From positions 1 through 64,000 of the forward strand of contig JABJCP010000033.1 of assembly GCA_018668595.1 (NCBI GenBank): 64,000 nt of DNA. Reading direction: 5' to 3'. Positions 52,827 through 61,150 of this stretch are shown one piece after another (position 1 is the stretch's first letter; every line of letters starts with the position of its first letter). The DNA is from Candidatus Woesearchaeota archaeon (GTDB taxonomy: Archaea; Nanobdellota; Nanobdellia; Woesearchaeales; UBA11576). Position numbers and translations under genes: made by a program. Below the pieces are notes generated by a model. The model searched no databases. It was not told the DNA's origin and saw only the letters and a list, made by a program, of their open reading frames with translations.

Positions 52827-54038
52827 CTAATTAAAATGATTCAATTTTATTTGAGAATTTATTTCATTTAATAGATCACTCTGTCGTAAAATAGGATCTA
52901 TATTCATTCCAAATTTCTTCTGTGCAAACTTTCGAACATAATCTAACATTAATTCTTTACTTCCAAACTCAAGTGGTTTTGATTCAATTGATTTTCTAGT
53001 TGCATTTCTACACACCCAAACTCCTAACGGCGCCCAGTATTCATTTGTAATAAAACGCAAACATAAAACTGATGCCTGTCGTCGAATCTTTTTTAGACCT
53101 TCAAGCACGCCAAGTCGTGCAGCATAATATCCTCCCGCCGTACTGTGAGCATATTCTCTACGACCAGAATAATTTTCATAATCAGTTGCAAATGAATCTG
53201 TTTGACCTGCAAGCATTTCAAATAACTCATATCTCCACACATCAGGAAAACATAAAACAAGATAATAATTTCCAAGGTATCCTCCAAAATAAGCAAGATA
53301 ATCAGAACTTGAATAATTTTTAATATCTTCTATCATTTTCTTACCTAAAATATCGTCAACAGCAGTAATAGACCATCTTGTTGGAACTATTTTACGTCGA
53401 GACTCAGAACCAAGATTGCCTAAACTAAGAACTTTAGTTATGTAATGTTCATCAAAATTTGATTTAGAAATTAAATTAACAGCCTCGGCAGCTTTCAAAT
53501 CATCATCAACAATTTTTTCTACTTTATGAGGAATTTTAGGATTTTCAGTAATTCTTGCTTGTTTTACAGAAACGCGAGGTCCGTGAGGCATAGCATCTTG
53601 ATTAAAACTCAATGAAAAACTTGGTTTTTTATTTAGATTTATCTCAACATCAACAGGCTTATGTGCAAGAGAAACTTCTTGACTCATTTGCATAAACCTA
53701 TCATCAAAACTTTTTATATGCGCTCTAAAACTACTATTAACTAGTTCAGTTCTTAAATTTATAACTTGTTGAATGCCAACTCCTTCTTTAACCCATTTTT
53801 TTGGTGCATCATGATCTTTGTATTCTTCAGTACTAAGAAATCCTACATTCACATTAGGATAACCATACTTTCCAACAAATATATTAGGGGTTTCTCCAAA
53901 AAAGTCTTGTTTTGCTCCCAAATTAACTTTTTTCTGACTACTTATTTTAGCCATTATTGGACAATATGGCCGCCCACATAAATTTCTCCCTTTACACTTA
54001 ACACACAAAACATTCATGTAACGTAAAAAGAAGTTCAC
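52827..54038 (-). CDS. NreA-like archaeal DNA repair protein
   Basis: CVKCKGRNLCGRPYCPI zinc finger, FVGKYGYPNVNVG, RWSITAVDD, C-terminal PIP-like QIKLNHF; probable start MNVLCVKC. Confidence 0.85.
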   Translation of the reverse strand: MNFFLRYMNVLCVKCKGRNLCGRPYCPIMAKISSQKKVNLGAKQDFFGETPNIFVGKYGYPNVNVGFLSTEEYKDHDAPKKWVKEGVGIQQVINLRTELVNSSFRAHIKSFDDRFMQMSQEVSLAHKPVDVEINLNKKPSFSLSFNQDAMPHGPRVSVKQARITENPKIPHKVEKIVDDDLKAAEAVNLISKSNFDEHYITKVLSLGNLGSESRRKIVPTRWSITAVDDILGKKMIEDIKNYSSSDYLAYFGGYLGNYYLVLCFPDVWRYELFEMLAGQTDSFATDYENYSGRREYAHSTAGGYYAARLGVLEGLKKIRRQASVLCLRFITNEYWAPLGVWVCRNATRKSIESKPLEFGSKELMLDYVRKFAQKKFGMNIDPILRQSDLLNEINSQIKLNHFN

Positions 54039-54189
54039 ATATATATTTTTGAAGGTTTTACAATTAAACTATTTTATCACATAATTAATCAGAAGGGTAG
54101 CAGCAATAACTGCAATAGCAACTAACAATAATAACCACTAATAAAGCAAATTATATCAAAATAAGCAGTTAGAATCATAATAAAAAGAA

Positions 54190-54275
54190 AAGACACCTAA
54201 GGTAGGTTTAGGGGGGCTTCTTAAGTAAGAAGTGATCTGACCTCAGGTTTCAAAGCATTAAATGCTTTTTGTCTC
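54190..54275 (-). ncRNA. Tandem C-rich small RNA candidate 1
   Basis: Minus strand: TATA (54299-54306), hairpin AAAGCATT/AATGCTTT, CCTGAGG 54247-54241 / CCTTAGG 54202-54196, CTTCTT-ACTT-AAGAAG, CCCCCC, U-rich 3' end. Confidence 0.65.
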
Positions 54276-54429
54276 TCATACAGCACAATACAGAGATGAT
54301 ATATAAATGTTTCTATTATGTACTTTCTTGATAGTAGTAACAAGAATTTAAATGTTTAAACGAATATTAAATCTAATTAAAAATAAGAAAATTTAACATT
54401 TTAAAACAAATCTCGAATAAGAAAAAGTA

Positions 54430-54522
54430 AAAACCCAAGGGATCTTTTCGGGGGGGCTTGAGAAGAATATAACACCTCGGGCTTTAACATCGTAAAAAAC
54501 AACAAATATTATTTGTTGTTTC
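54430..54522 (-). ncRNA. Tandem C-rich small RNA candidate 2 (paralogue)
   Basis: Minus strand: TATA (54547-54554), AACAACAAATAATATTTGTTGTT hairpin, CCCGAGG 54481-54475 / CCTTGGG 54440-54434, CAAGCCCCCCC, U-rich 3' end. Confidence 0.65.
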
Positions 54523-54640
54523 TATTAAGTAGTAACTTCGAAATACTATATAAATATTTCTATACTCCAGAATATGCCATTTATAAATAGGGACATAAAA
54601 GTCAAGTAATTCAACAAAAATTAAAAAAATAGCTCGAAAT

Positions 54641-56608
54641 TCAAACAGCTAAAAACAGAGGAATAAACACCAAACTAACTATGCTCATTAATTTTATCAG
54701 AATATTAATTGCAGGTCCACTAGTATCTTTAAATGGATCTCCCACAGTATCTCCAACTACTGCTGCTTTATGTGCAAAACTTCCCTTTCCACCACAACCT
54801 TTGCATTCACCAGATTCAATATACTTTTTAGCATTATCCCAAGCTCCTCCTGCATTTGCCATCATTATTGCCATCAAAACACCAGTAACTAATCCTCCGC
54901 CTAAAAATCCACCAAGTGCTTCAACACCCAAAAACAATCCTACAAGAATCGGAACAAATATTGCAAGAAGTCCTGGAAGCACCATTTGTTTCAATGCCTC
55001 TTGCGTTGCAATATCAACACATTTTGCATAATCAGGTTTTGCTTTTCCGTTCATAAGTCCAGGAATATTCTTAAATTGATAGCGAACTTCTTCTATCATT
55101 TTAAATGCAGAAACTCCAACCGCACGAAGAGTAAGTGAACTAAAAATAAAAGGCATCAGTCCTCCCAAAAATAAACCAATAAGAACAATGGGTTCTGTAA
55201 TACTTATCACTTTCAAATCTACTCTCACAATATATGCTGAAAAAAATGCAAGAGTTGTAAGCGCTGCACTTCCAATTGCAAATCCTTTTCCCATTGCAGC
55301 AGTTGTATTTCCAACAGCGTCAAGAGCATCAGTTCTTTTTCTAACAGCTTTTCCAAGTTTTGCCATTTCAGCAATTCCTCCTGCATTATCTGCAACAGGA
55401 CCATACGCATCTATTGCTAAACTAATTCCAAGAGTCGACAACATTCCTACTGCAGCAATTGAAATTCCATAAATTCCCCCCATTTTAAACGAGATAAATA
55501 TAGCAATCACAATAACCAAAACAGGTAATGCTACTGATTCCATTCCTAAAGCCAATCCTTGAATAATATTTGTTGCAGCACCTGTTTTTGAAGCTTCAGA
55601 AACTTTACGCGTCGGATAATGTTTTGCAGATGTATAAAATTCAGTTATCAATCCAATCAACACACCACTAATTAATCCAACAACTAATGCCCACCAAATA
55701 TCCACACTTCCTAAAAAATGTTTTGTTAAAAAATATGAACCAATTAATACAAGCAAACTTGAAACTAATAATCCTCGTCTTAAAACAGTTTGAATTTTCT
55801 TTTCAGAATCAGTTCTCACAAACAAAGTTCCAATAATAGATGCTATTAATCCCACTGCTGCAATTGTTAAAGGTAAGTAAATTCCATTTTTTCCATAAAT
55901 AAATACACCTATAGCCATTGCTGCAATTATTGAACCAACATAACTTTCAAAAAGATCTGCACCCATCCCTGCAACATCTCCAACATTGTCCCCTACATTA
56001 TCTGCAATTACTGCAGGATTTCTTGGATCATCTTCAGGAATTCCTTTTTCTATTTTACCGACGAGATCTGCACTAACATCTGCAGCTTTTGTGAAAATCC
56101 CTCCGCCAACTCTCGCAAATAATGCAATTGAACTTGCTCCAAAACTAAATCCATAAATTATTTCAGGATTTCCAAACCATAAATATAAAATACTTATCCC
56201 CAGTATTCCTAAACTCGAAACAAAAAGTCCATTTACAACTCCTGAACTAAAAGCAATACAAAGAGCACCTAAAATATTTTTTCTAGCAGCATTTGCACAT
56301 CTTACATTTGCACTAGTCGCAGTTCTCATTCCAACAAAACCTGCTAATGCAGAAAGTATCGCTCCAAAAATAAATGATACTGCAGTTTCCCATCCAATCA
56401 AAATCCATAAAATCAACGAAACAATAATTACAAATATAGATAAAATTCTATACTCTCTCAAAAGAAATGCCATTGCTCCTTCTTGAATATAACTTGCAAT
56501 CTCTTGCATTCGATTATTACCTGCATTTTTTGAATTAATCCACATAGAAAAAACTAAAGCAACAATAATTCCAATCCCTGAACTTGCAACAACTAGACTA
56601 AGTATCAG
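54641..56608 (-). CDS. hppA: Membrane-bound H+-translocating pyrophosphatase
   Basis: [47 protein letters not shown], multi-TM. The track ORF starts at ATG 56545; the conserved TM1 extends upstream to a non-AUG start. Confidence 0.9.
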
Positions 56609-61051: not shown

Positions 61052-61150
61052 GGCGGTAGTCGTATAACGGCTAGTATACAGGACTGTGGAAAATCAAGCA
61101 ACTTATTTTGCAGATATCCTGTGACGCGGGTTCAATTCCCGCCTACCGCC
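61052..61150 (+). tRNA. tRNA-His(GTG) with 37/38 intron (about 61090-61115)
   Basis: G-1:C73, acceptor GCGGTAG/CTACCGC, anticodon stem CAGGA/TCCTG, GTG 61086-61088, T-arm GCGGG-TTCAATT-CCCGC. Confidence 0.92.

Follow-up and report, generated by a model that had tools for sequence, protein, structure and literature searches.

Two tandem units on the minus strand between hppA and an nreA-like gene appear to be paralogous genes for a small structured RNA, and the family to which they belong, apparently undescribed so far, is very probably real and conserved. Both copies lie in the window, by which we mean the whole 64,000-nt stretch of woesearchaeal DNA that was analyzed, and sequence comparison indicates that this RNA occurs across several families of DPANN archaea of the Woesearchaeota type. 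The most likely explanation, which we hold with moderate confidence, is a family of standalone sRNAs whose C-tract would mask G-run Shine-Dalgarno sequences in trans.

The promoter, 5' hairpin (P1), conserved helix (P2), C-tract, and U-rich end that the preliminary description assigned to both minus-strand units could all be located in the sequence, and Pfam matches identify the two neighbors that it named: hppA, a membrane pyrophosphatase gene, upstream (54641..56545, minus strand; PF03030, E 2e-272), and the nreA-like gene downstream (52827..54017, minus strand; PF04894/PF04895, with a likely ATG at 54017 judged from the starts of relatives). The unit 1 promoter (54547..54560, minus strand) consists of a BRE-like GAAA and TTTATATA, the latter at 54554-54547, and the predicted sRNA of ~105 nt (54421..54529, from folding and covariance models) would start ~25 nt past the TATA box. 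It contains on the same strand a predicted 13-bp P1 hairpin (54495..54523) and the P2 helix with its loop (54433..54482), in which GCCCGAGG at 54482-54475 faces CCTTGGGT at 54440-54433 around a C7 tract (54450..54456) with a predicted unpaired probability of 0.99. Unit 2, likewise on the minus strand, has an upstream GAAA and TTTATATA (promoter 54300..54313; TTTATATA itself 54307-54300), a predicted sRNA of ~105 nt (54176..54282, again from fold and covariance models), a predicted 7-bp P1 hairpin (54252..54268), and P2 with its loop (54195..54248), formed by ACCTGAGG at 54248-54241 and CCTTAGGT at 54202-54195 around a C6 tract (54211..54216; predicted unpaired, 0.98). A promoter is thus present as claimed, but not in the TATATAAA form, the actual element being TTTATATA with its upstream GAAA.

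The P2 strands read GCCCGAGG/CCUUGGGU in unit 1 and ACCUGAGG/CCUUAGGU in unit 2, and in both units AAGCCCCCC lies inside the P2 loop and the 3' end is rich in U. The compensatory change from U-A to C-G first noticed between the units is present, P2 is kept with covariation in the homologues, and beside this double change the outermost pair also differs between the units, G-U versus A-U. P2 can be extended beyond the helix given above (10–11 bp in unit 1), and both units fold better than their shuffled sequences (z -3.5 for unit 1 and -2.6 for unit 2). Across the 2.3-Mb genome AAGCCCCCC occurs four times; the other two copies were set aside as unrelated, being without the helix, one antisense within a gene and one just 3' of a polB-like gene.

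Two units alone are thin evidence, and the observation is counted as settled because homologues were found. A DNA similarity search with both units returned from relatives only the promoter and chance AT-rich stretches, and synteny via nreA and hppA was therefore used. The same arrangement stands upstream of nreA in five genomes of the window's family (G006, G002, G008, G003, and G001), of which G008 matches the public Woesearchaeota MAG contig JABMQF010000095.1. Synteny and covariance models together yielded 11 more homologues with a promoter, from eleven other genomes in the same order, most of them syntenic and in the window's family, and the helix is kept in the homologues recovered. A model built from four sequences (R1) recovered G009 (E 2.3e-8) and G010 (E 4.4e-7), neither used in its building, and matched unit 2 (U2), G001, and G003 weakly, all three having been left out of it; a model of nine sequences (R2) recovered G105 (E 2.2e-4) and G014 (E 0.0078), from other families of the order and not in the model; and a model of the core only (R3) recovered G191 (E 7.5e-7) and G147 (E 1.2e-4), from the family of G105 and again not in the model, all of these E-values being rough, as they come from short model calibrations. 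Most of the matches to R3 at E > about 1e-3 can be put down to chance (about 400 genomes at E 0.1). The two window units fall within one covariance-model family, as their description as paralogues supposed: unit 2 reaches 51 bits (E 3.8e-8) against R2, which includes it, and only 19.4 bits with R1, which was built without it.

A TATA box lies shortly upstream of the RNA in all 13 members (the two window units and the 11 homologues), and weaker model matches almost never have one, just one being listed with a TATA box. Four matches in which a C-tract hairpin follows a stop codon without a TATA box (G506, at E 1.6e-8, and G458, G225, and G096) were excluded from the family. These four, which come directly or closely after stops and end in U-runs, are what would be expected if the elements were terminator-like 3' hairpins of neighboring genes, with the C-run there by chance and the likeness convergent. 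We regard this as very improbable for the family itself, given the TATA box before the element in the 13 core members and the preservation of position, P2 covariation, and C-tract across genera. Terminator-like hairpins with a similar C-run loop 3' of stops were noted in other families (L184, L182, L170, and L172), one after an ftsZ-like gene and two after homologous short genes, which could reflect convergence or 3'-UTR relatives.

A small protein gene was ruled out, since ATG-started frames differ or are missing across members and no small ORF is conserved among them. Nine homologues submitted to Rfam cmscan at E up to 1 gave no family match, only two chance-level matches to unrelated families.

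The case for a structured RNA rests chiefly on P2. Among the 13 core sequences 97.1% of P2 cells are paired and seven of the eight pairs show two-sided changes. For nine full-length members the proportion of paired cells is 89%, and 12 of their 17 pairs vary on both sides. The model structure is favored in such counts, because the alignments (A8-A10) were fitted to it. The covariation score of P2 over the 13 sequences was reached by none of 500 shuffles, sliding P2 by one to three columns lowers pairing to 32–61%, and P2 also appears in the minimum-energy fold of those single sequences that were folded. The minus-strand orientation, originally argued from a single G-U pair, is borne out by the same kind of count: the minus strand pairs 85 of 88 cells and the opposite strand 69 of 88, the latter pairing worse because 18 cells are G-U.

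The surroundings of the RNA are variable. Every genome of the window's family in which it was found has it close to hppA, nreA, or both, and in six of these it follows hppA, directly or past a divergent 364-aa ORF. This ORF, which two genomes carry between hppA and the RNA (L063:2175-3269 and L092:2638-3732), matches an HTH domain only weakly (Pfam E 3e-4). In G001 (L066), of the same genus, hppA was not detected and the RNA still adjoins nreA. A convergent YdjM-family gene separates the RNA from nreA in G006, G002, and G010, nreA is not adjacent to the RNA in G009, in G014, or in the rpr2-linked members, and the three members in family f16 are located 3' of rpr2, a gene for an RNase P subunit, one of them with an intervening ORF. 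Because the neighbors vary among genomes in this way (hppA, nreA, YdjM, rpr2), the RNA is best read as a standalone gene.

The RNA immediately precedes nreA, in the same orientation, in the window's genome (G000), G003, G008, and G001, and this placement could suggest instead that it is a 5' leader of nreA, akin to a riboswitch or thermosensor, and whether unit 1 might be such a leader had been raised at the outset. The synteny contradicts this: in addition to the intervening YdjM-like gene and the members that lack a neighboring nreA, the nreA gene of the window and its relatives has its own TATA-like box about 25–40 nt before the ATG and is near-leaderless (in the window the box is ATATATAT, at about 54047-54039). 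We therefore consider a leader function scarcely credible.

What the RNAs share beyond P2 is informative as to how they might act. The C-tract, C4 to C8 in length, is the best-conserved part and is predicted to be unpaired with a probability of 0.80–1.00 in all 13 members, versus 0.10–0.49 for other C residues; the f16 group has just CCCC-U-C. Each RNA has a single conserved C-tract, within P2, whereas the loop of P1 is short and made up of A and U. The main constant from family to family, besides P2, is this C-run, which folding predicts to be exposed.

Such a run might instead be a binding site for a protein (e.g. one with a KH domain or of the cold-shock type, or else Lsm bound to the U tail), with the same standalone RNA serving as a decoy or scaffold. 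In many members the tract has a fixed place in the covarying hairpin, which contains a small inner stem of U and A (UUUUC/GAAAA), and its flanking bases are conserved inside one genus (AUCCCCCUGAA), as a protein site might require. However, tract length and flanks differ between families, and beyond one genus just the C-run is constant, as it would be for a base-pairing seed; no candidate protein or linked gene was found, and on balance we think this function unlikely.

A housekeeping or guide role, in which the partner of the RNA would be rRNA, tRNA, or another sRNA, seems less probable still. The genes are standalone, present in one or two copies, and driven by a strong promoter shared with many protein genes, and synteny is maintained in family f1, all of which would suit such a role; yet at the search sensitivity applied the RNA was not found in the majority of the order's genomes, which is unusual for a housekeeping RNA. 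Inspection of the homologue sequences revealed neither C/D boxes nor an H/ACA hairpin with a 3' ACA, and there was no guide-RNA match in Rfam, so that a C/D or H/ACA guide RNA in particular was rejected.

Masking of ribosome-binding sites by the C-tract is favored because of the exposed C-run, the use of Shine-Dalgarno sequences, the enrichment of G5, and precedents in bacteria and archaea. Under this mechanism each of the duplicated genes would encode a standalone non-coding RNA of about 70–110 nt, transcribed from a strong archaeal promoter of its own, with a start inferred from the position of the TATA box, and comprising the 5' hairpin, the covarying 3' P2 hairpin with a large loop of four to eight cytosines predicted to be unpaired, and the U-rich tail. 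The C-tract would act as a seed, pairing in trans with mRNAs at their G-run Shine-Dalgarno sequences and so reducing translation, and two copies in one genome may provide dosage or different regulation. Even a short C-tract should be selective enough, because G-runs are rare outside ribosome-binding sites in an AT-rich genome.

Possible targets can be sought in the genome. In the window, SD-type motifs occur at -20..-2 of 19 of 54 genes, versus 3 and 2 in control stretches taken from upstream, and a GGGG run at these positions in just one of the 54. The pattern GGGGG-N3-12-ATG has 151 matches in the genome versus 67 for the reversed pattern, a crude control in a count that includes overlapping matches inside long G-runs. 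This enrichment marks possible targets and is expected in any genome with G-rich Shine-Dalgarno sequences. Among 25 distinct G5 cases inspected, 11 lead into an ORF no shorter than 60 aa, the G5 lying 4–9 nt upstream of it. No conserved mRNA target of the C-tract was found, and Pfam assignments of ten genes with G-run Shine-Dalgarno sequences show no common pathway. It can be suggested, more tentatively than the masking itself, that this new DPANN-archaeal sRNA family is a broad translational regulator of the class of mRNAs with G-run Shine-Dalgarno sequences, independent of 6C and IsrR, duplicated, and moved between loci (hppA/nreA and rpr2).

Several known sRNAs offer a model for this mode of action. 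The 6C RNA has three helices and two C-rich loops (PMC6582537), is called Actinobacteria-specific, and, as summarized elsewhere, is reported to bind several mRNAs through these loops (Mai et al. 2019, via PMC9569102). Like it, the archaeal RNA is small and standalone, presents a C-rich loop on a hairpin, and has extra gene copies in some genomes; unlike it, the archaeal RNA has one C-tract inside P2, a different fold, an archaeal host, and no Rfam match. IsrR and other Firmicutes sRNAs with C-rich regions use unpaired C-runs in AT-rich genomes that have few G-runs other than those of Shine-Dalgarno sequences (PMC9410917), and a conserved C-run (here predicted to be unpaired) in an AT-rich genome is found again in the present family. 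However, IsrR is bacterial, repressed by iron through Fur, and has three C-rich regions, and the searches indicate no homology. In Methanosarcina mazei the intergenic sRNA154 and sRNA41 are described as masking ribosome-binding sites, sRNA154 via a loop (PMC5867862); the present RNA is likewise an intergenic archaeal sRNA that may mask such sites, but the Methanosarcina RNAs belong to a methanogen, are tied to nitrogen fixation, and in the portion of their description consulted have no C-run seed. By analogy, the family may work like 6C, IsrR, or sRNA154, and none of the tests made points to homology with them.

Organisms of the Woesearchaeota type are mostly uncultivated and have small genomes. 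A search of the available literature for Woesearchaeota together with sRNA returned no match, though such papers may exist elsewhere. An RNA family supported by covariance offers a tangible way into the post-transcriptional regulation of DPANN archaea, and it is directly searchable in metatranscriptomes. If the proposed mechanism is true, recognition of ribosome-binding sites by C-tracts would seem to have arisen separately in archaea and bacteria.

A tRNA (61053-61150) is all that Rfam recognizes in the window; it may contain an intron, since its 98 nt exceed the 71-position model.

The promoter of the RNA is of an extended type, GTGACAACAAAA-NN-GAAA-N-ATTTATATA, that is found before many of the order's protein genes as well; allowing up to three mismatches it occurs in 128 of 295 genomes, with none of the reversed control among the matches listed. 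A GTCAC-N6-GTGAC element beside the TATA box was considered as a specific operator and dropped, because the extended sequence is a general promoter type of the order. A long conserved version, (A)GTRACAACAAAA-NN-GAAA-N-ATTTATATA, is found across the order (e.g. L124, L137, and L142), and its part upstream of the TATA/BRE suggests no obvious known factor. In genus g2 a palindrome, ACTTACATTGTAAGT, lies ~75 nt upstream of the TATA box of the RNA (L063, L067, L065, L092, and L093). It has few copies per genome (L196-L213) and is not in the window's genome. It recurs in the divergent valS/rfcL gap of G008, G002, G009, G010, and G003 and, about six copies to a cluster, close to a membrane protein gene (G008:C105 and G010:C61), and these sites are possibly a small regulon or a repeat.
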